This document shows positions 16,099 through 44,058 of a stretch of DNA of 64,000 nt, in pieces. A program made the translations under genes and the position numbers. The stretch's first letter is position 1; the number at the start of each line of letters is the position of its first letter. This stretch comes from Beggiatoa leptomitoformis (GTDB lineage Bacteria; Pseudomonadota; Gammaproteobacteria; Beggiatoales; Beggiatoaceae): assembly GCF_001305575.3 (NCBI RefSeq), contig NZ_CP012373.2, positions 3,420,261-3,484,260 on the forward strand. Reading direction: 5' to 3'. Below the pieces are notes generated by a model, which did no database searches, was not told the DNA's origin, and saw only the letters and a list, made by a program, of their open reading frames with translations.

Positions 16099-19000
16099 CT
16101 ATTGTCCTTCATAAACTTGCCAATAATGTTCAGCGATGGCTTGCCAATCATATTGCTCAACAAATTGTCTGCCCGCCGCACCCAGTCGCTGACGTAAAGG
16201 CGTATCCGTCATCAAGCGGATAATGGCTTCAACAAACGCATTTATCTCATCTTCAATCAATGCCGTTTGCCCATTAATAACAGGAATACCCTCAGCCCCT
16301 TTTGCTGTTGCAATAACAGGAATGCTACTTGCAAAATACTCTAATATTTTCATGCGAGTACCACCACCATCTTGTAAAGGAACAATCGCAATATCCGCCG
16401 CTTTTAAATAAGGCGCAACATGCTCAACAACATCAGTAAAATATAAATCAGGGTGGTTTTTATGCTTAGGTGGATATTTCCCCACAGCTAAACATTTTGG
16501 ATAATAACCACGTTGATTTAATGCAGGTAATATAACAGTATCTATCAATTCTACGGCTTGGCGATTGGGTGGATATGCGTAAATACCATGAAAGACTAAA
16601 ACCATATCATCCGCACTGATACCATAACGTTGACGTATGGTTTCAGCAGAAGGAAATGGATGTGTAAACATTTTTAAATCAACACCATGAGGGATAAGTG
16701 TTAATTTGGCAATATTCACACCTGCTTGAACTAAACGCTCTAAATCTGCCTGTGACACGACAATAACGTTATCCGCAGCACGACATAGACGAATTTCAGT
16801 CTCCGCCATAAATTGTTCTGTCGCTTTAGATACATTATAAGTCTTAGCAATTCTTGCAAATTCTACATTGTGTTCAACAATACTGGTTTGCCCTCTAAAT
16901 AATAAATGCGCCCAACGACAAGCCGATAAATAAGCAGGAAATTCAGCTTGATAAACATTAATTTTTTTCTGTAATGCAACGTATAGCACCCGTAAACGGA
17001 AATTATTATCTAATAAGGGGAAAAACAAAAATGCGTCATCTAGCGGAATGCCATATTTTTGATGCAGCGTTTGCCGTAAGTTGGTTTCAGGAATTGCCCA
17101 TAAACGCCGTAACAAGCGCGGATAAAGTTCCTCTTGCATAATACCATTATGAAATATATAAAATTTTTCCCGTTCGGCGGTGATGAGATACACCTCGTCA
17201 TAATGATAGGATAAGGCGCGCGCGGTATGATAAATCTTGGCTGCCGCACCGTGGTCAACAGGGAAAACATCGTGGCGGGTAATAATTGCCAAATGTTTTT
17301 GTTTACGATTGGTTATGCGATTGACTAAGGGAGTGAAAAAACGTTTTACAACAGCGCGGTAAGCGGTTTTTACACTTTGTCCGATATGGGTTAAACGGCT
17401 TTTTAATCGACGTTGTTCAGCAATATTTTGCCAAATCGTGACTTGTTGCGCGGTTGCTGCTTGTAAATGTTGTAAATTATCGATGTCTGCTTTTAAGCGG
17501 TTACATTCTGCCCAGCCTTGTTCTTTTGCCTCTGTGATTTGCGCAGAAAGTTGTTGTTCAGCCGATAATTTTTCTTTTGTTTTATTCAGTTCTTCTTGCA
17601 ACAGTTGTGCATCTTGTTCATGGTTGAAGCGTTTTGCTAATGCCATGAAAAAATGGCTACGTTTTGCTAATTTGTGAGGGTTTAAGCAGAAATTAACCAA
17701 CGGTTGCGTGGTTTTTTCCCAGTTAAATTGTTCTAAAATCAAGCGTTGTGCATTAGCACTTTTTTGTGCAAGATTTTCTTTGCCTGTCACAATGCGTGCA
17801 ACAACGGTTGTTAATGCGTCATTGTCATCCGAAGGAATCACCCAACCTGCATCATATTCGCGGATTAAGTCGGCAACTTCTAAAAAATCATTGCAGATAA
17901 CGGGTAAACCACAACGTAAATAATCAATGACACGGAAAGAAAAACTTAATTCTCGTTCACAGTTTTTTGTGCCTAATTCAATACCAATATCCGCTTGTAA
18001 ATAAAACTGTTCCATTTCGTTATAAGGCATTAAATCTGATTTGTGCAGAATATGCTGATAACGGTCTTCATCTGGCAATTTTAGGCTAACAGCCTCTCCC
18101 CCTGCGAGGGGATATTTACCGACAACTAAGTGTAATTTTCCACGCGCGTGTGCGTCTAAGGTCTGCATAATCATCAGCATCCATGCTGATGGGTCGCGCC
18201 AAGGCCAAATCACGCCACCATAAACAAATGTGGGTTGATGTTCTGGCGGTTGAATAGGACGTTGTGGCAGTTGCGGGCTGGCAGAAATAGGGATTAAATC
18301 TAAAGGGTTATCTTTACAACTAATCCCGCTCATGAGTAACCAGCTAAGATGAAAGCCTTTTTGTCGTTTGGTGCAGCATAAAAAGTGGTCGGCACGGCTT
18401 AATGTATAAATATAATCAATGAGTTCTAGTTCTACATTGTGCTGGTCTTGAAATTCAGCTTCTAATAGGCGTGGCGCGAGTAAATCCAATACGATAGGGA
18501 TTTCAAAATTATCAGGTAATTGGCGCATTATTTCCCAATAACCGACAATTAAAACAGCGGGTTGATATGTTTTAATTAAGCTGTGTAAATGTGCATAGTC
18601 TTGATAGGGAACAAGTGTTACTAACGCATTTTCTGGCACTGTGCGGATGGTGTTGGCTTGGGTGGCGTAAATGACTTCGAAGCCTTGTTGGCGTAAACCC
18701 ATGGCTAAGCCCCATGCACGGATGCCGTTACCCGTCACGGATTCGCCCGCAACGGGAAACATGCCATGTGTAATGAGAAATACTTTACGATTTTGGGTTG
18801 AGGGAATGGCAGTAGATAGCGTGGTTGGTGTTAAATCGGACATGGGATGAGTCGTGGCTTGGTGAGCAGGTTTTTGTAATAAAACTTCTAGGGTTGAGCA
18901 AGTAAAATCAATCTGTTGCCCATTGGGTAGTTGTTGTATCAGTTGTTGTTTTACATCAGCATCAATTGGGGTTGTCCCAACATTATTGCATAAACGTAGC

Positions 19001-20076
19001 ACTAACGCGGATTGTTGAAAAAAGGTGAGGTAATCTGCGTAGGTGTAACGATTAATATGTGGATTATCATAAATTTGATAAACAAATTCTGTTGCAAATT
19101 TTTCGCCCCATTGTTTGGCTAATTTGTCGAATAATTCATCTTTTGTAAAACGTAAGTGTTCATAAGGACGCAAGATATGGGCGTAGGAGTCGGGGTCGGT
19201 AAAGCGCATCCAGTGTCTATTGTATGTAAACCATAGGTGATGCCCAATAGCGGAAGACCATAAAGGACCAAAATATCCATAAATCATCCCATTGGGTTTT
19301 AATAATCGCGTCATTTCGCGTAAGGCAGTCGGAAAATCGTGAATATGTTCAAACGCGGCGATATTAAAAATTAAGTCAAAACTGGCATCTTCAAATGGTA
19401 GTGCGCGAATATCGCCGTGACAGAGAACAATTTTATCAGTAATATTTTGTTTTTCAGCTTTATTTTTCCAATACCAGTTATTAATGCCTACACCTTGTTT
19501 CATGCCTGCTAATTGCAGTTGATATAGAACATTGGCATTATCCGCGCCGATTTCTAGGATAGTTTTGTCGCGCACATCGGTTGCTGCGAGTAGTCCATCT
19601 AGGGCAATTTTTTGATAGTCAAATAATTCACCATCTAAAAAAGCGGTGCCGAGCGGGTCAAATAGTTGGGTTAAGGAAATGGTTTTTTGGGTATCTGCTT
19701 GATGTGTTGTAACAGGTGATTCTGCAAAAAGACTGAAGAAAAATTGATTCGCAGGGGTTAATAAGTGGGTGACAATGGGTTGTGAAAAGTCTGTCGGTAA
19801 CCAGTCATTAAACTTTTGATTTTCTAGTAAAACAACATCTACAGGGGTGTTTGCTAACAGGGTCTGCAAGGCTTGCGCTGTTGGGCAATAGCAGTATTGA
19901 ATGGTTGTTTGTGGTGTAGTGCTGTGTGTATTACTCGCCCAAATCACTTGAAAACCATGTTGTGCGATTTGTTGGGCTAATTGCCACGCATATACCGTTT
20001 TTTCCAAGGGTATTGTTGGGTCAGGAATAGCATAACGGGTGAGCAGTAAAATGGTGCGAGGCTTACGAGTCGTCAT
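16099..20076 (-). CDS. Multidomain glycosyltransferase/methyltransferase fusion
   Basis: This 1325-aa protein joins several enzymes. Residues 1-120 resemble a lone N-terminal glycosyltransferase half-domain. Residues about 165-400 are a class I SAM methyltransferase (ILEIGADNANVLYQLQLAGM, then HGDIRALPFEDASFDLIFNI and YGYFGPLWSS). Residues 430-815 are a glycosyltransferase (LITHGMFPVAGESVTGNGIR to FRVIDYLRCGLPVICND). Residues about 845-915 form a coiled coil. Residues about 945-1325 are a GT4-type transferase (NVIVVSQADLERL, LIPHGVD, GGGTRMKILEYFASSIPVI). No signal peptide or membrane helix is visible. It probably assembles and methylates a cell-surface glycan. It stands apart from the polysaccharide cluster at 45-61 kb; upstream is tilS. 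Confidence 0.88.
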   Translation of the reverse strand: MTTRKPRTILLLTRYAIPDPTIPLEKTVYAWQLAQQIAQHGFQVIWASNTHSTTPQTTIQYCYCPTAQALQTLLANTPVDVVLLENQKFNDWLPTDFSQPIVTHLLTPANQFFFSLFAESPVTTHQADTQKTISLTQLFDPLGTAFLDGELFDYQKIALDGLLAATDVRDKTILEIGADNANVLYQLQLAGMKQGVGINNWYWKNKAEKQNITDKIVLCHGDIRALPFEDASFDLIFNIAAFEHIHDFPTALREMTRLLKPNGMIYGYFGPLWSSAIGHHLWFTYNRHWMRFTDPDSYAHILRPYEHLRFTKDELFDKLAKQWGEKFATEFVYQIYDNPHINRYTYADYLTFFQQSALVLRLCNNVGTTPIDADVKQQLIQQLPNGQQIDFTCSTLEVLLQKPAHQATTHPMSDLTPTTLSTAIPSTQNRKVFLITHGMFPVAGESVTGNGIRAWGLAMGLRQQGFEVIYATQANTIRTVPENALVTLVPYQDYAHLHSLIKTYQPAVLIVGYWEIMRQLPDNFEIPIVLDLLAPRLLEAEFQDQHNVELELIDYIYTLSRADHFLCCTKRQKGFHLSWLLMSGISCKDNPLDLIPISASPQLPQRPIQPPEHQPTFVYGGVIWPWRDPSAWMLMIMQTLDAHARGKLHLVVGKYPLAGGEAVSLKLPDEDRYQHILHKSDLMPYNEMEQFYLQADIGIELGTKNCERELSFSFRVIDYLRCGLPVICNDFLEVADLIREYDAGWVIPSDDNDALTTVVARIVTGKENLAQKSANAQRLILEQFNWEKTTQPLVNFCLNPHKLAKRSHFFMALAKRFNHEQDAQLLQEELNKTKEKLSAEQQLSAQITEAKEQGWAECNRLKADIDNLQHLQAATAQQVTIWQNIAEQRRLKSRLTHIGQSVKTAYRAVVKRFFTPLVNRITNRKQKHLAIITRHDVFPVDHGAAAKIYHTARALSYHYDEVYLITAEREKFYIFHNGIMQEELYPRLLRRLWAIPETNLRQTLHQKYGIPLDDAFLFFPLLDNNFRLRVLYVALQKKINVYQAEFPAYLSACRWAHLLFRGQTSIVEHNVEFARIAKTYNVSKATEQFMAETEIRLCRAADNVIVVSQADLERLVQAGVNIAKLTLIPHGVDLKMFTHPFPSAETIRQRYGISADDMVLVFHGIYAYPPNRQAVELIDTVILPALNQRGYYPKCLAVGKYPPKHKNHPDLYFTDVVEHVAPYLKAADIAIVPLQDGGGTRMKILEYFASSIPVIATAKGAEGIPVINGQTALIEDEINAFVEAIIRLMTDTPLRQRLGAAGRQFVEQYDWQAIAEHYWQVYEGQ

Positions 20077-35521: not shown

Positions 35522-36502
35522 TTAATCAACCGCAGATTCAACGGGTGTGACTTTGTTATTACTACCTCGCCATAAATAATGGGTTAATGCTAATCCTGCT
35601 TGTTTTTCTGCTTCGGGGTCTTTAGGCATTTCCAAACGTAGGGCTTCGTAGAGCAGATGACGATGTACATCAAAAGTAGCTTCGATAAGTTGTCCGTAAA
35701 TATCAGCCGCTTTTAGGGCTAGTAAATAACCTGAACAGATTAAAAACAATGCGATTGATGGAGCAAACCAGCTCCAAATTGTCCAGATAAAAAATAATAT
35801 TCCCCATGCAACTAATTGAATCGCCTCGTCAAGTGCATCGCGGGTGGCAGACAGTTCTTTTTGTGTTGATTCGGGAAGCACTAACCAAAGGCGAGACCAG
35901 CAGATAATTGAATCTAACCCATACTTTTTATAAGAGCGTTGTTCATAACCGCGTAAAATATTACCTAAACGAGTGGGCATTGGAGGGGTTATATCTGATG
36001 TTGATGCAATTTCCCCTTTTAACTTGGTATATATCAATGATTCTTTGCTAGTTAATGGCTGTTTTTGCAACACTTTAGCATCAAGTTCAGACCAACGATT
36101 TAATCGTTGCTGATATTGATTTTCATAAAACTGAATTTTTTTAACATAAAACCAATGCAATCCATAATCAGACCAATTGTAGCCTTCTAATAAACGCAAT
36201 AGCTCAAATTGTAAGGCTTTTACAATTGCACTTGATAATACAATCAATGTAGTTAAGATTAAAATTAAAACTATCATTTCAGATTCTTGCATGGTACGCA
36301 AAAAGTCCCAAACACCAAGCCAATCTTTTGTTATATATCTTTCTTTATCTGCTAATACTTTGTTAAAACGCAGTTTATCAATGGCTTCCCAATTAATAAT
36401 GCTGAATAACCAAAGAAAAAAACCACCTAACCAAAAAAAGAGGCTCGTTTTTAAAGGCGTGCTTAACCAGCCTTGAAACACACCACTGAGTTTAGCAAAC
36501 AT
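35522..36502 (-). CDS. Four-helix membrane protein in CHAT protease unit
   Basis: The 326-aa protein has membrane helices at about residues 20-37, 75-97, 228-245 and 247-264, separated by a cytosolic loop of about 130 residues. The loop contains MPTRLGNILRGYEQRSYKKY, then GLDSIICWSRLWLVLPE. That TRLGN-x-L-R...YGLD...WSRLW-x-LP pattern recalls a poorly described membrane family also seen in actinobacteria (from memory, not searched). It is the last gene of three, 9 bp after the zinc-ribbon gene. It could be the membrane-acting output or a substrate of the CHAT protease. No gasdermin-like pattern is seen. Confidence 0.75.
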   Translation of the reverse strand: MFAKLSGVFQGWLSTPLKTSLFFWLGGFFLWLFSIINWEAIDKLRFNKVLADKERYITKDWLGVWDFLRTMQESEMIVLILILTTLIVLSSAIVKALQFELLRLLEGYNWSDYGLHWFYVKKIQFYENQYQQRLNRWSELDAKVLQKQPLTSKESLIYTKLKGEIASTSDITPPMPTRLGNILRGYEQRSYKKYGLDSIICWSRLWLVLPESTQKELSATRDALDEAIQLVAWGILFFIWTIWSWFAPSIALFLICSGYLLALKAADIYGQLIEATFDVHRHLLYEALRLEMPKDPEAEKQAGLALTHYLWRGSNNKVTPVESAVD

Positions 36503-36511
36503 TAGTATATC

Positions 36512-36895
36512 CTATTGTTTTGTCATGAGTAATTCGCAGGTTTGACAAGTAGGTGGATTTGATAAAACTCTTGGAAATCGTTGGATATGATTGTTTGGGC
36601 ATTTATATACTGTTAATGGCATTTCAGATAAATCAGGGTCACCCGCTAATGGTGAATAACTTTTATCATTATTTGTAGGTAGTGGAACTCTCTTTTCCAT
36701 CCATTTTCGTGTTTCCTCATATTGACGCAACAAACTTCTTAGTGGTCGTTTAATTGACTCGCCTGATTCGGCACGTGCGAATAATGATTCTAGTTCTTTT
36801 TCAACAGATTCGGCTTTTTTACCTAATAATTTTGGTAATTCAGCTAAAATGTTTTTAGCTTCAGTGATTAGTTTGTTTTCTTCGTCTGAACTCAT
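36512..36895 (-). CDS. Small zinc-ribbon protein in CHAT protease unit
   Basis: From ATG 36895 the product is 127 aa. Residues 1-70 are helical and strongly charged (ITEAKNILAELPKLLGKKAE). Residues 92-127 form a zinc-knuckle-like end with Cys 99, His 103, Cys 117 and Cys 120 (YKCPNNHIQRF, then PPTCQTCELL). The start lies five bases past the CHAT stop, so translation is likely coupled; a longer frame to 37006 would overlap the CHAT gene and is rejected. It may be a scaffold or a protease substrate; no known family recognised. Confidence 0.72.
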   Translation of the reverse strand: MSSDEENKLITEAKNILAELPKLLGKKAESVEKELESLFARAESGESIKRPLRSLLRQYEETRKWMEKRVPLPTNNDKSYSPLAGDPDLSEMPLTVYKCPNNHIQRFPRVLSNPPTCQTCELLMTKQ

Positions 36896-36899
36896 GAGA

Positions 36900-39473
36900 T
36901 TAAATACCTGTGTAACTAAATGCTGCCCAATAATAAGGATGTCTAAAGATTTGCTCGGTGTCTGCTGAAAAACCGATAGCATCTTCCATTTTTTCAATCG
37001 TTTCATCTGAAAGATGGTTGTTTTCTATAAAAGCAAGTTTCTCGGTATTTGTGCTGTTCCGCACCCAAATCTGTGCCAATCGCAAGGCTTTTGCAGGATT
37101 ATCAGGATATTCATTAAACCAACGGTGATAAAACTGTGCCATCAATAACATGGTGCTTAAATCTGCCACTGACCACAGGGACGCTACCACTCCCGCCACG
37201 CCCGCTTGCAATAAACTGGTGGGTAAACTTACCACTTCCTCAACTTGTTTTACGCCTATCATCCCTGTTTCACAAGCGGACAAACTGACTAAACGGGCAT
37301 TGAGTTGTGCGTTTAAGAAATCCTGCACGGTTAGCATTTCATTATGTGCCATTAACAACCCTGTTTTTAATGGGTCTTCTGGTTTTGCACCGCCATGACA
37401 AGAAAAATGTAACACGGAATAACCATTATTCAGCACATTTTTAACAGCTTCTTGGGTTGCTTTTTCATGAGCAAAAATATCAGCTTGTGCAAAATACTGT
37501 TGAATTGCCTGTATTTCTACCGTACAACTGGGCAAAGCATTGGCTTTAACGGGACGCGGTTCATTAATCGCTAATAATTTCTGTGCGGGGATTTGTGCGC
37601 GTTTGCGAGCAGTTTGTAAAGAAAGCGCATTCGGTGCATAGCTAATCGTGTAATCATCTAACACATAACGGCGTTTACTATCAGTTGTTACATAAGCAGC
37701 CGCGTGAAGCGGTAATAAATTTAATAATCCGATGGGAATTAGCGTGGTTTGTGAATTTGGGGGAGTATTTTGCAAAATCGGTTGCATGACGGCTTGACAA
37801 AGCCATTCTGTCATCGTTTCTATGGCTTTAAACCAAGTTTCACCACGTTCATCATAAGCATTAAAATAGCCATTTATTTTTTCTAACAAAGTCGCCTCTT
37901 TTAATTCAGGCAAAGCAGTCGCTTGAATTTGTCCCTGAAAAACGTTTAAGGCATAACCGCCTTTTTTTGTAAAGAAAATATAAATTAATGCTTGTTGCTT
38001 AGAAACTTGCTTAACGGTGTTTATATCGGTTGCAATTAATAAAAAGCTTTCATGTCCTTGTAACTGGCGAATGTCCGCTAGCAATGCGTTAAATTGCTTT
38101 TCTGCGGTTTGCCATTCAGATTGTGCTTTTTCGCGGAGATTTTCAGGCGCGTTTTGGTAAAAGCGTTGTGCATTATTGACGACTTGCAAAGAATCTTGAT
38201 AACGCGCGTATAATTCAGGGCTATCTTGTTGTAATTGGGCTAAATCAGCATTAGAACGGGCTAACGCACTGCTTAATAAACGTGCAACCCCTTGTTCTAA
38301 GGCTTCAACTGCACCTTCAAGTTGTTTTGTTCGAATCCGTGCATACGCGACTCTTACCGCAATGCCTTGTGTATCTTTCAAAAAGGCTTCTTGATGTTCA
38401 CGCAACAATTGTTTTTCGACTAACAAATTGCTGTTTTTTTGGACAACAGGATAAGCTTCTTCAATTAAATTCCAATTTTCATATTTGTATCCCCAATTCA
38501 ACAGATTACGTGCTGCTCCCGCCCGTTCCTCAAGCGAGTATTCTTCGCCTAATTTAATAGCTTCGCGACATTTATTTATCCCATTATCTAAATCTTGTGA
38601 TTCCCCTGAAGCGTCATAGCGATTTATATATGCTGTTGCTAAACCATTTAAAAACTTGGGGTAGTTAGACGAATTACGAGGAGTTTTTTCAACCGACTCT
38701 TCATAAGCCTTTAATCCTTCAATTAAATCACTTGGGGTCTTTAAGCGTTCATAGTGATCTGTAAGACAATTACCCAGCGTATGGTGTAAAAGTGGTAACT
38801 CTAAATTTGGGGGTAGAGATTCTTTAAGCTCTATCGCTTGCGCATAGTGTTCAATGGCTTCGCTAGAATATTTAACCATATCTTTTTCAAAGCACTTGAG
38901 CCTATCTTCTCCAAAAAATTTTGAACCCTTTGAACAAAAATTCTTTGCAGAAATAGCTAAATTATTTTTTAAACCACTCAATAATGCAAAAGAATCACAA
39001 TGATTCGGAATTTTAGCAATAAGTTGCTGATAAATTTCAAAGCATTTATTATAAGATTCTTTTGAACTTAAACGTGCGGCATACTCTTGAACTGCAATAC
39101 CTAAACTATTTAACCGTTCAATGAGGGCAGGAGAATCAGATTTGGTTCGATCAACAGTAAATTTCAGCTTTTCAATAGCATCATCTAAATCAGTGATTTG
39201 ACCTTCTTTCCAAAACTTTTCTAAGTATTTAACCCCTTCATTATGAATATAATAGAGTGTAGTTCGTGAAGTATTTTTTAACATATCCTCATATCGATTC
39301 CAAATCAGCTCCGGCTTATCTGGTTTATATTTTTCGATATGAACCTTAATAATTTTTCTAATTTCCGCTTTATTAGTAATTAATTCAGGAAATATCTGCA
39401 AAACCTGATTTAATTCCTTACCATTAGAAACCTGAAGAAACGCATTTACTGCCTCAATCAATCGCTCATCCAT
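36900..39473 (-). CDS. TPR-CHAT caspase-like protease
   Basis: CHAT proteins are clan CD cysteine peptidases related to caspases and separase. In this 857-aa protein residues 1-480 form degenerate TPR helices. The C-terminal CHAT domain (about 560-857) carries the catalytic His in LHFSCHGGAKPEDPL (His 693) and Cys in VSLSACETGMIG (Cys 734), plus SLLQAGVAGVVASLWSV and the closing HPYYWAAFSYTG. There is no signal peptide, so it acts in the cytoplasm. It heads a unit with a zinc-ribbon protein and a membrane protein. TPR-CHAT proteases take part in phage defence in other systems (Craspase, bacterial gasdermin loci); no gRAMP or CRISPR array is here. Confidence 0.9.
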   Translation of the reverse strand: MDERLIEAVNAFLQVSNGKELNQVLQIFPELITNKAEIRKIIKVHIEKYKPDKPELIWNRYEDMLKNTSRTTLYYIHNEGVKYLEKFWKEGQITDLDDAIEKLKFTVDRTKSDSPALIERLNSLGIAVQEYAARLSSKESYNKCFEIYQQLIAKIPNHCDSFALLSGLKNNLAISAKNFCSKGSKFFGEDRLKCFEKDMVKYSSEAIEHYAQAIELKESLPPNLELPLLHHTLGNCLTDHYERLKTPSDLIEGLKAYEESVEKTPRNSSNYPKFLNGLATAYINRYDASGESQDLDNGINKCREAIKLGEEYSLEERAGAARNLLNWGYKYENWNLIEEAYPVVQKNSNLLVEKQLLREHQEAFLKDTQGIAVRVAYARIRTKQLEGAVEALEQGVARLLSSALARSNADLAQLQQDSPELYARYQDSLQVVNNAQRFYQNAPENLREKAQSEWQTAEKQFNALLADIRQLQGHESFLLIATDINTVKQVSKQQALIYIFFTKKGGYALNVFQGQIQATALPELKEATLLEKINGYFNAYDERGETWFKAIETMTEWLCQAVMQPILQNTPPNSQTTLIPIGLLNLLPLHAAAYVTTDSKRRYVLDDYTISYAPNALSLQTARKRAQIPAQKLLAINEPRPVKANALPSCTVEIQAIQQYFAQADIFAHEKATQEAVKNVLNNGYSVLHFSCHGGAKPEDPLKTGLLMAHNEMLTVQDFLNAQLNARLVSLSACETGMIGVKQVEEVVSLPTSLLQAGVAGVVASLWSVADLSTMLLMAQFYHRWFNEYPDNPAKALRLAQIWVRNSTNTEKLAFIENNHLSDETIEKMEDAIGFSADTEQIFRHPYYWAAFSYTGI

Positions 39474-40413: not shown

Positions 40414-43400
40414 TTATAGCCAGTTCCCCATTAAAATGAAGGGCGACCAGTAAAAAGGGTGTTGATAACGGCGGTCTTTCATGAGTGCAAGTTGTGCTTG
40501 TTGTAAAGATTCGGCTTTGTTTAGGTGGTTTTTTGCCCGTAATTGGTAGAGTTTTCCCATTAATTGCCCTGTGCTTTCGTCGTCAACTTGCCATAAGGTT
40601 GCAATCACGCTTTTCGCGCCGCGTATTTGCGCGAGTGTGCCAAAGCCTTCAATCTCTTTTCCATCGGCTTTTTTATTGCCCATTGCGGTATTACAGGCGG
40701 ATAAGGTAAGTAAATCTAAGGGGCTAAAGTCGTAACCAATCCGAATTTGAGCAAGCGTTAATTTATCGCCATTGCCGAGTAGTAAGTAGGAATTGCTATC
40801 ACCGCCGATGGGTTCAAATACGAAATGGCTGGCAATGTGCAAAATGGGTACGCCTAAGTCTAGGATATCGTTGAGTGATTGGGCATTAAACGCGTTATTG
40901 AGTTTAATTTCACCGTGTAAGACGGATTGAATACTTTGTAGTTCTTTTTCTACGGCAGGGAGTGCGTTAAATCCGTCCATTGCTTGGCTGACACCAAAGC
41001 CTGCAAAATTGCTGTCTGCTGCGGGCTTGCTTTCTAAATTGCTTTTTGCCGCTTCGGTATAGAGAACCACGGCGTAGTTTTCTGCAATATAGTTTTTACC
41101 ATCATGTAGTGCGGCGATGGGGATGTAACGCAATACGCCATCTAACGATACCATAAGCGTTTTAGCGTCGGCTTGTTGTAAATCGGCTGCTATGGGTTTG
41201 ATTATAATATTATATAATTCTTGTGCTTGTGGAATCGGTGAGCGGGTGATTGTTTGTAGGCTGGTGCGAAAGGTTTCGAGTTTGTTGCGTAAAATAGCTT
41301 CATTAATCACGGTTTGGCGGACTAGTTGTGTCTCGGGCGTTGTGAGAATAATGTAGAGTTTATCTGGTGTGATGAGATAATGGATTAATACAGCACCATG
41401 TCCTAAATTGCGCAGGGTATTTTGTAGCGGTTTTAGTTTGCTTAAGTTTCGTTCACCAACTTCCATCGCACGGTCTGAGCCTGTTTCTTTCAGTTGTGTT
41501 TTTAGTTCTTTTAAATAACGTTGAAAGGCTTGTTCTGCAACTTTTGTGTCTTGGAGCAATACGGCATAACGTGCGTCTTCTTCTGGCGTTAAAGTCGATA
41601 GGCGTTTTTTCTGTTTTAGCTGTTCGCGTTCTTTTGCCAAACTCACTAATTGCTTGTTAATGTCATCATAACGGGTTGCCCATTGTTGTTCTATGGAATT
41701 GTAAGGATTTGCACCCATCCGTTGGGTATTACTAAAATCAGCATATTCATCTGCTTTTAATAAGCCTAAAATTTCTTGTGCTTCAACCGTGCGTCCTTGT
41801 GCCAGTAGAAAATCAGCAACTTGTTGATAAACTGTTTTTTTATCTTCAATAAAGGTGGTTTGTAACGATTTGTCTAGCTGTTTAACGTTACTGCGTAATT
41901 GTTGAATAGTATCAATGGCTTTTTTACCCCAGAAAATAGCATCATCGTTTTGTGCTTGTTTTGCTAATAGATGGCTGTAATGATTTTGTACTTTCCATAA
42001 TAATTCTGGTTCAGAACTCGCTAGGGGTAGGGCGCGTTCGAATAAAGCCTTTGCTTCAGGTAAATTGCCTAATTCTTGGTTTAATTCAGCCAAGCCATTC
42101 AAACTTTGCGCAATATCAGGGTGTTCCGCGCCTAATGTTTTTTCTCGAATCGCTAATGCCCGTTCATAATAAGATTTGGCGTTGGCATAGTCGCCCATGC
42201 TGTAATAAAGCCAGCCGATATTGTTCAAACTGAGGGCAACACGTGGGTGGTCTTTGCCCAAAACCGTTTCCCAAATGTTTAATGAGCGTTCATAGTAGCG
42301 TTTTGCTTGCTCATAATCGCCTGTGTTGTAATACACCAGTGCGATATTATTTAAGCTTAATGCAACATCGGTATTTTTTTCGCCAAAAACCTTTTCCCAA
42401 ATGGCTAATGCTTTTTCATACATTGGTTTAGCTTGCGCATAATCACCAATATTGTAATACAGCAAACCCAGATTGTTATAGGCTAAGGCAACATCTGCAT
42501 GTTCTTGTCCGTAAACGTTTTCAACGATTTGTAATGACCGTTCATACATTTTTTTCGATTGGGCATAATCACCCGTGCTGTAATACAACAAAGCTAAATT
42601 ATTTAAGCTCTGTGCAACATCAGGATGTTCTTTTCCATAAACTTTTTCTCGAATAGCCAATGCCCGCTCATACAGTTTTTTAGCTTGTCCATAATCGCCC
42701 ATACCATAATATAATAAGGCTAAATTATTTAAACTTAAGGCAATATCAGGATGCTCAGGATTCAGTTGTTGTTCACGAATGGCTAGCGCACGTTCATATA
42801 AGGCTTTAGACCGTGGATAATCACCCATATCATAATAAAGTAAGGCTAAATTATTTAAACTGAGTGAAACATAAAGATGATTTGGATTTAATAACTTTTC
42901 CCGTGTCGCTAATGCCTCTTCATACAATGGTTTAGCTTCTTGATAGCGTCCCATATTGTAGTATAACAATGCTAAGTTATTTAAACTCACAGTGGTTTCA
43001 ATACTTTCACGTCCATAGGTAGCTTCACGCAGTTGTACAGATTGTTTGTGCATTTGCTCTGCTTCTTTATAGCGTCCTGTTTGTCTGTATAATTCTGCCA
43101 AATTATTTAAACTTTCTAAGGTATAGGGATTATTATCGCCATATAATTTTTTTCTAATCGTTAAGGCTTTTTCATACAAGGGTCTAGCTTGAGAAAACTC
43201 GCCTGTTTTGCGATATAACTCGGCTAATTCATTCGCCGTGTTGGCGACATTAGCGTGTTCTGCCCCTAAATTTGTTTCCTGAATAGATAAAACCAATTGA
43301 TATAATGGCTTTGCAAGTGAAAACTCATTCATATCACGATACAAAATAGCCAAGTTTTCCGCGCTCAGGGCAACATAATCATGTGTATTACCAAACATTT

Positions 43401-44058
43401 TTTGGCGAATACTTAAGGCTTTTTCATATAAAGGGCGCGCTTTTACATAATTTCCCTGATTGTAATACAATAATGCTAAGTTATTCATACTCGTTGTTGT
43501 TTCTAATGTCTCATCCCCTAACAATTTTTCCCTTATCGCTAATGCACGTTGATGCAAGGGTTCTGCCGCTGCATAATGTCCCGCTAACCGATAGGCTTCC
43601 GCTAACATATTGAGTGTAGAAGCAATATCAGCATGTTCTTGCCCATAAAGCGATTCTTGCGCGTTTAATAAGGTTTGATAACGATTAATGGTTTTTTCTG
43701 TATCTGTCTGCATACTTGCAATGTATGCTAGCCAATCCAAGGCATTAATCATTTGTTCTTGATTTTTAACCGATGTTGTCAGCTCAAGCAGTTGCTGAAA
43801 ATCTGTTTCAGCCGCTGCATACTGTTCCAGTTTAAAGTGAACTTCCCCTTGATGTGCAAGAAAATTAATATGTTCAGTAACATTTGTAGCGCAATCGGTC
43901 GTTAGCAAGATATTCAAATGCCTTAAGGCCTGCTGCCATTCACTACGTTCTTTTAAAGCCAAAACAGCATTAAATCGCCGTTCACAAGCAGGGGACAAAT
44001 CAGCCGCCTGCCCCAACACAGTGGAAAATAAGAGGAAAAATAATAAAGCAATACGCAT
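40414..44058 (-). CDS. Exported TPR-CHAT protein
   Basis: The 1214-aa product begins with a signal peptide (MRIALLFFLLFSTVLGQAA), so it is predicted periplasmic or surface-exposed. Residues about 140-685 are 13 kinesin-light-chain-like TPRs of 42 residues, several nearly identical (HPDIALSLNNLALLYYGMGD is typical). A charged helical linker follows (about 750-890), then a CHAT domain with catalytic His 1078 (HIASHF) and Cys 1122 (LTLSACNTAMG), SVIATLWQVDD and HPFYWSPFILMG. TPR-CHAT proteins of this exported kind are frequent in filamentous sulfur bacteria and cyanobacteria; targets are unknown. It is monocistronic. Confidence 0.9.
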   Translation of the reverse strand: MRIALLFFLLFSTVLGQAADLSPACERRFNAVLALKERSEWQQALRHLNILLTTDCATNVTEHINFLAHQGEVHFKLEQYAAAETDFQQLLELTTSVKNQEQMINALDWLAYIASMQTDTEKTINRYQTLLNAQESLYGQEHADIASTLNMLAEAYRLAGHYAAAEPLHQRALAIREKLLGDETLETTTSMNNLALLYYNQGNYVKARPLYEKALSIRQKMFGNTHDYVALSAENLAILYRDMNEFSLAKPLYQLVLSIQETNLGAEHANVANTANELAELYRKTGEFSQARPLYEKALTIRKKLYGDNNPYTLESLNNLAELYRQTGRYKEAEQMHKQSVQLREATYGRESIETTVSLNNLALLYYNMGRYQEAKPLYEEALATREKLLNPNHLYVSLSLNNLALLYYDMGDYPRSKALYERALAIREQQLNPEHPDIALSLNNLALLYYGMGDYGQAKKLYERALAIREKVYGKEHPDVAQSLNNLALLYYSTGDYAQSKKMYERSLQIVENVYGQEHADVALAYNNLGLLYYNIGDYAQAKPMYEKALAIWEKVFGEKNTDVALSLNNIALVYYNTGDYEQAKRYYERSLNIWETVLGKDHPRVALSLNNIGWLYYSMGDYANAKSYYERALAIREKTLGAEHPDIAQSLNGLAELNQELGNLPEAKALFERALPLASSEPELLWKVQNHYSHLLAKQAQNDDAIFWGKKAIDTIQQLRSNVKQLDKSLQTTFIEDKKTVYQQVADFLLAQGRTVEAQEILGLLKADEYADFSNTQRMGANPYNSIEQQWATRYDDINKQLVSLAKEREQLKQKKRLSTLTPEEDARYAVLLQDTKVAEQAFQRYLKELKTQLKETGSDRAMEVGERNLSKLKPLQNTLRNLGHGAVLIHYLITPDKLYIILTTPETQLVRQTVINEAILRNKLETFRTSLQTITRSPIPQAQELYNIIIKPIAADLQQADAKTLMVSLDGVLRYIPIAALHDGKNYIAENYAVVLYTEAAKSNLESKPAADSNFAGFGVSQAMDGFNALPAVEKELQSIQSVLHGEIKLNNAFNAQSLNDILDLGVPILHIASHFVFEPIGGDSNSYLLLGNGDKLTLAQIRIGYDFSPLDLLTLSACNTAMGNKKADGKEIEGFGTLAQIRGAKSVIATLWQVDDESTGQLMGKLYQLRAKNHLNKAESLQQAQLALMKDRRYQHPFYWSPFILMGNWL
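42004..43641 (-). repeat. Tandem 126-bp TPR-coding repeats
   Basis: Thirteen consecutive 42-codon units lie within the exported CHAT gene. The middle units (about repeats 6-12) are the most alike, sharing the core LNNLALLYY-x-x-GDY-x-x-(A/S)K. DNA similarity invites gain or loss of units by recombination. Confidence 0.8.

Follow-up and report, generated by a model that had tools for sequence, protein, structure and literature searches.

In the window analysed here, a stretch of 64,000 nucleotides from the single-contig genome of Beggiatoa leptomitoformis (4,265,317 bases, with 10 CHAT domains), three genes lie head to tail on the minus strand in the order A, B, C, separated by gaps of 4 and 9 nucleotides. 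The first gene of the operon, A (36900..39473, minus strand), encodes an 857-residue peptidase of the caspase superfamily, of the TPR-CHAT type, recognized by Pfam CHAT; B (36512..36895, minus strand) encodes a two-domain protein of 127 residues, delineated from an AlphaFold model and family alignments; C (35522..36502, minus strand) encodes a 326-residue membrane protein, described by AlphaFold, by hydropathy and charge, and by a 74-member alignment. Four nucleotides separate the stop codon of A from the start codon of B (TAA TCTC ATG), and C starts 9 nucleotides past the stop of B, with a ribosome site of the AGGA type. B may also be read as a 164-residue protein from 37006, and its relatives align with the 127-residue start. 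Promoter and terminator scans at the trio gave results no better than shuffles.

Nearby open reading frames, assigned by reading and, for two of them, by Pfam, are ppk1-, argA-, epmA-, DUF1841- and tsaB-like, along with a second TPR-CHAT gene; the immediate neighbours of the trio (epmA-, DUF1841- and tsaB-like) resemble housekeeping genes. The second TPR-CHAT gene, located past the tsaB-like one and outside the trio (window 40414-44058, minus strand), encodes 1214 residues, with a signal-peptide-like start and TPR repeats of 126 nucleotides. A 1325-residue frame at 16099-20076 reads as a methyltransferase-glycosyltransferase. In a genome of the same genus, G005, the unit is absent, and the genes flanking the trio lie 2.8 Mb apart.

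The CHAT domain of A (PF12770) spans residues 555-854, with E=2.4e-56 and 191.7 bits against a cut-off of 24, while Pfam finds its TPR repeats only weakly and no STAND NTPase. Both catalytic residues, His693 and Cys734, were verified, which places A among the CHAT peptidases; this dyad and the coordinates of all three genes, as proposed in an earlier note on this DNA, hold on re-check. The nearest solved relatives, found by sequence in the PDB, are the TPR-CHAT/Csx29 chains of Craspase (E=2e-8), aligned over the CHAT region only.

The earlier note had also suggested that the three genes form a unit, whose recurrence should be scored across genomes. A search of public genomes for C returned 116 relatives, of which 80 loci were kept, from Cyanobacteria, Actinobacteria, Chloroflexi, Acidobacteria, Desulfobacterota and Gammaproteobacteria. 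In all, 87 C loci, cleared of known duplicates except for one remaining near-duplicate pair (L029/L117), were scored with local HMMs for B, C, CHAT and C14. They come from at least six phyla. B lies directly upstream of C in 79 of the 87; a peptidase, either CHAT or C14, is present on the fetched contig in 74 and within 1.2 kb of C in 64, and several of the loci devoid of peptidase end at contig edges. Among the 34 loci with full flanks (at least 9 kb on both sides), a peptidase is found in 30, and within 2 kb in 28. The trio thus recurs far beyond chance, in dozens of genomes belonging to at least six phyla.

The distances of C are correlated with those of B (r=0.59) and with those of CHAT (r=0.51), with none of 2000 permutations reaching values as high, shared ancestry contributing to both figures. 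Within the order of the window genome, whose relatives include Thioploca, Candidatus Thiomargarita and Candidatus Marithrix, B and C occur together in 8 genomes, B only in 1, a strong C only in 0 and neither in 33 (Fisher p=8e-8, or 3e-6 counting two weak C matches). In an even genome sample, C was found in 1 of 232 Gammaproteobacteria, namely the window genome itself, in 7 of 244 Cyanobacteria (centre included) and in 5 of 246 Actinobacteria (centre and divergent members included). All five evenly sampled cyanobacteria with an intact C besides the centre, three of them outside the pattern-found set and two inside, carry A-B-C; a sixth has a broken C beside CHAT. Hosts are often filamentous (Nostoc, Leptolyngbya, Streptomyces, Anaerolineae, Beggiatoaceae), and the unit is sometimes plasmid-borne; no relative of C was found in the viral contigs searched.

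Some C homologues, a minority made up mainly of divergent actinobacterial members, lack a nearby peptidase. This divergent group is mixed: L175, L176, L179, L183 and L186 adjoin CHAT, and several others do not. One Streptomyces genome (G278, L182-L186) holds about six divergent C paralogues, several without CHAT within about 6 kb. Long, SAF-like C-terminal extensions, recognized by eye, are found in two actinobacterial C homologues (L031 7620-9083 and L175 5352-7214), and in two other loci C is split over several frames, in apparent decay (L072 9843-10879 and L174 6119-6598). In two loci related to Beggiatoaceae (L038 10668-13022 and L036 8562-9110), A and B are separated by toxin-antitoxin-like pairs, also judged by eye. 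The inverted duplication with identical gene copies seen in L045 (1-20924) is probably an assembly artefact.

The partner peptidase, where found on the contig, is of the CHAT type in 64 loci and of the C14 type in 10. Among the CHAT partners covering the site the dyad is intact (His in 61 of 61, Cys in 63 of 63), as it is in all 10 C14 partners, and conservation of these residues indicates that the partner peptidase is probably active. According to Pfam, some C14 partners are joined to nSTAND1 (L055, L057, L103), others to NA-iREase1 and WD40 repeats (L028, L062), an NLR-like make-up that strengthens the case for a role in immunity or cell death. In a Lyngbya locus, a C14 peptidase is fused directly to the tail of B, and C follows. 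Along the C tree, the type of peptidase changed at least 4 times and the side on which its gene lies at least 7 times; the peptidase type is therefore interchangeable, and the link was kept or re-made repeatedly. A single run of genes in Thiomargarita nelsonii (L033 1383-12090) features tandem CHAT genes, a C14 caspase, an unknown protein and a ParA-like ATPase, followed by B and C.

B is modelled by AlphaFold (62-member alignment, mean pLDDT 87.1) as a helical domain (residues 2-69), a disordered, low-confidence linker (about 70-90) and a compact, zinc-ribbon-like tail (94-126), with zero transmembrane helices. The tail aligns, at low significance, with zinc-ribbon and desulforedoxin folds. 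The four putative ligands named in the earlier note, Cys99, His103, Cys117 and Cys120, were verified in the window protein, but across the family Cys99 and Cys117 alone are invariant; the other positions vary, and the set is complete (CPxC...CxxH) in some members and incomplete in many. To judge from the alignment, some members of the family probably bind zinc. Foldseek found no PDB match for B with E under 0.001, and sequence searches of the PDB returned stray zinc-finger and coiled-coil matches only. In one locus, from Elainella (L107 8407-9234), the helical domain is present three times, almost identical, before a single tail.

An alignment of 80 B proteins revealed a conserved linker motif, with consensus [K/R][G/S][Y/F]xxL[P/A]G, represented in the window by DKSYSPLAG (residues 77-85; 36641..36667, minus strand). 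Lysine or arginine occupies one fixed linker position in 51% of these proteins, against about 11% at most other upstream positions, and a basic residue lies at most 4 positions away in 57 of the 80, compared with 37 +/- 4 in shuffles; the rows are related and a few of them wrongly anchored, so that the contrast overstates independence, and under the anchoring used 23 of the 80 have no basic residue nearby. We regard the motif as a candidate site for cleavage by the peptidase or for its docking. According to PMC6426788, orthocaspases cleave behind positively charged residues, a preference with which a fixed basic residue in a disordered linker would agree. CHAT proteases are not uniformly basic-specific, as illustrated by the Csx29 cut in Csx30, which falls between residues 427 and 429 (PMC10028731), and since the motif extends C-terminally (YxxLPG), docking would fit as well as cleavage.

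For C, which the earlier note had described as a four-helix membrane protein, the AlphaFold model agrees: it is predicted to be all helical, with four hydrophobic helices (mean pLDDT 89.4, pTM 0.85), the transmembrane ones at about 15-35, 73-97, 225-245 and 247-272. Hydropathy and charge of the segments fit, as a prediction, a four-pass protein with both termini inside. The domain between the two pairs (98-210) is conserved, basic (on average 18.9 K+R against 12.3 D+E) and predicted cytosolic, with invariant G107, G180, E187 and W206 in the 74-member alignment. The second hydrophobic pair is joined by a tiny loop, and then comes a C-terminal helix ending in YLWRG, where Arg312 and Gly313, at the edge of the ordered model, are nearly invariant (R in 63 and G in 65 of 74). 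Of the motifs in C, the strongest reads [M/L]PT[R/K][L/V]GN[I/L]LR...E...YGL...W.RLWL.LP. PDB searches with C gave no Foldseek match with E under 0.001 and zero matches by sequence, and with VIA-align the best Z, 6.2, is of the size to be expected from helical bundles, and no fold was assigned. The PomA stator, similar in its four-helix topology, was discarded as a relative, its match being too weak (Z 5.1, rmsd 8.3, 128 aligned).

Pfam and NCBIfam gave weak stray matches only for 11 members each of B and C, and Pfam one stray match for 62 B members. With PADLOC 2023, the window A, B and C match no system model, and 74 C and 62 B members give stray single matches only. B and C thus have no convincing match to known Pfam, NCBIfam or PADLOC families, the statement for C on Pfam covering 11 members. 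On the two points that the earlier note had named as able to overturn its idea, rare co-occurrence of the genes and C proving to be a housekeeping transporter, the results favour the note: the genes do co-occur, and the same 11 members fall in no known Pfam or NCBIfam transporter family.

Several known systems resemble the trio in part. In Craspase (type III-E, with gRAMP/Cas7-11, the TPR-CHAT protein Csx29 and its substrate Csx30), a TPR-CHAT gene likewise lies beside a putative two-domain substrate with a flexible linker, but B is far smaller than Csx30 and C is a membrane protein. The trio also resembles those bacterial gasdermin loci that include a CHAT or caspase-like protease, in that the protease gene adjoins the gene of a putative membrane effector. 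Whereas gasdermins are soluble and of alpha/beta structure, the C model is all helical with four transmembrane helices and B is predicted to combine helices with a zinc ribbon, and identity with gasdermins was rejected. In keeping with the earlier note, which had found neither gRAMP, nor CRISPR array, nor gasdermin, no gRAMP-like protein is present among the neighbouring frames inspected, nor does a CRISPR-like repeat array occur at 34.9-44.2 kb of the window.

The literature searched by terms covers the caspase-based conflict systems EACC1, EACC2, CATRA and VMAP. CATRA, the caspase-dependent ternary conflict systems named in PMC8195603 with reference to Burroughs and Aravind 2020, appear to combine a caspase-type peptidase with a small protein in conserved loci; the difference seen here lies in their CATASP marker (PF20271), which none of 62 B proteins match, and B was accordingly dismissed as a CATASP. 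A PF20271 search of 8 genomes also gave no match, a weak result, as no positive control matched. EACC1 and EACC2 (PMC7159879, PMC8195603) share with the trio a constant caspase component, a membrane link and variable domains, but EACC1 has a single transmembrane helix (PMC7159879), whereas the trio has a separate four-helix protein and a zinc-ribbon protein, and does not belong to EACC1. Several C14 partners, consisting of a caspase with nSTAND1 and/or WD40, recall the STAND/NLR-like caspase-WD40 immune proteins, whereas the window peptidase is a TPR-CHAT protein without STAND; no description of the B-C pair was found within these systems. A search by chosen terms in Kaur 2020, Kaur 2021, the metacaspase survey PMC3501461 and the hypermutation paper returned no passage describing the trio.

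The unit is conserved, its catalytic residues are intact and B carries a conserved linker motif. The earlier note's claim of a three-gene defence or death unit with a new pairing is supported at the level of the genes; that A senses a cue, that B is cleaved and C gated, that the membrane is damaged and that defence is the purpose is what we infer. A would sense a cue via its N-terminal TPR region, the peptidases of its relatives via STAND-WD40 or other variable domains, and the cue would turn it into an active caspase-like protease. A would then act on B, most likely at the exposed linker motif, and the cut would part the helical domain from the zinc-ribbon tail. This would relieve or trigger C, a predicted inner-membrane protein of four helices with a basic cytosolic domain, which may permeabilise or depolarise the membrane, so that the cell would be arrested or killed, in the service of antiphage immunity or programmed death.

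We consider the odds on such a peptidase-triggered membrane effector module to be evenly balanced. In its favour are B-C adjacency, the nearby peptidase with its intact dyad, the re-made linkage, the NLR-like C14 partners, the Lyngbya fusion, the distance correlations and the complete trios of the even cyanobacterial sample; against it stand the housekeeping-like neighbours in the window, the few C loci without peptidase and, for the membrane step, a C protein lacking any fold match that would mark a pore. Chance neighbourhood without any functional unit, to which the abundance of CHAT genes in the window genome might lend some colour, is refuted by the fact that the trio recurs across at least six phyla, its linkage having been re-made several times, and retains practically no probability.

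The signal might also run in reverse, with C sensing membrane or envelope integrity and restraining A through B, so that an insult would free A to cleave cellular targets. This is unlikely, although C has a large conserved cytosolic domain with four invariant residues and the Lyngbya fusion implies that B can be peptidase-bound: it is the peptidase that carries the variable parts (TPR, STAND, WD40), which is what sensing by the peptidase would predict. A regulatory or developmental unit of multicellular bacteria, involved in stress or cell differentiation and not in defence or death, would suit the many filamentous hosts and the presence of C in a single sampled gammaproteobacterium; sporadic presence, plasmid carriage, absence from G005 and NLR-like partners fit a conflict system better, and make this quite unlikely. 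Very unlikely, in our judgement, is a direct cut by A in C at Arg312-Gly313, between the last helix and the disordered tail, with B a mere adaptor: the pair is nearly invariant and lies at the edge of the ordered model, but it ends a helix and may be structural, and as an exposed site the linker of B is more typical.

Returning to the peptidase-triggered effector, the recurrence of the trio suggests a protease-triggered cell-death or defence device with a new membrane part. CHAT and C14 caspase homologues are abundant in filamentous bacteria, few having known substrates, and two undescribed families travelling with them across at least six phyla point to both substrate and output. A bolder proposal, possible but rather doubtful, is that C represents a hitherto undescribed family of caspase-gated membrane channels or pores that has spread among multicellular bacteria and in which B, the small zinc-ribbon protein, would act as a proteolytic switch, plugged into either TPR-CHAT or NLR-like caspase sensors. 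If true, the trio would offer a testable bacterial route from NLR-like sensing through caspase activation to membrane damage, with a concrete candidate substrate motif, and a caspase-gated channel family would be a bacterial parallel to the caspase-gated membrane permeabilisation of animals.
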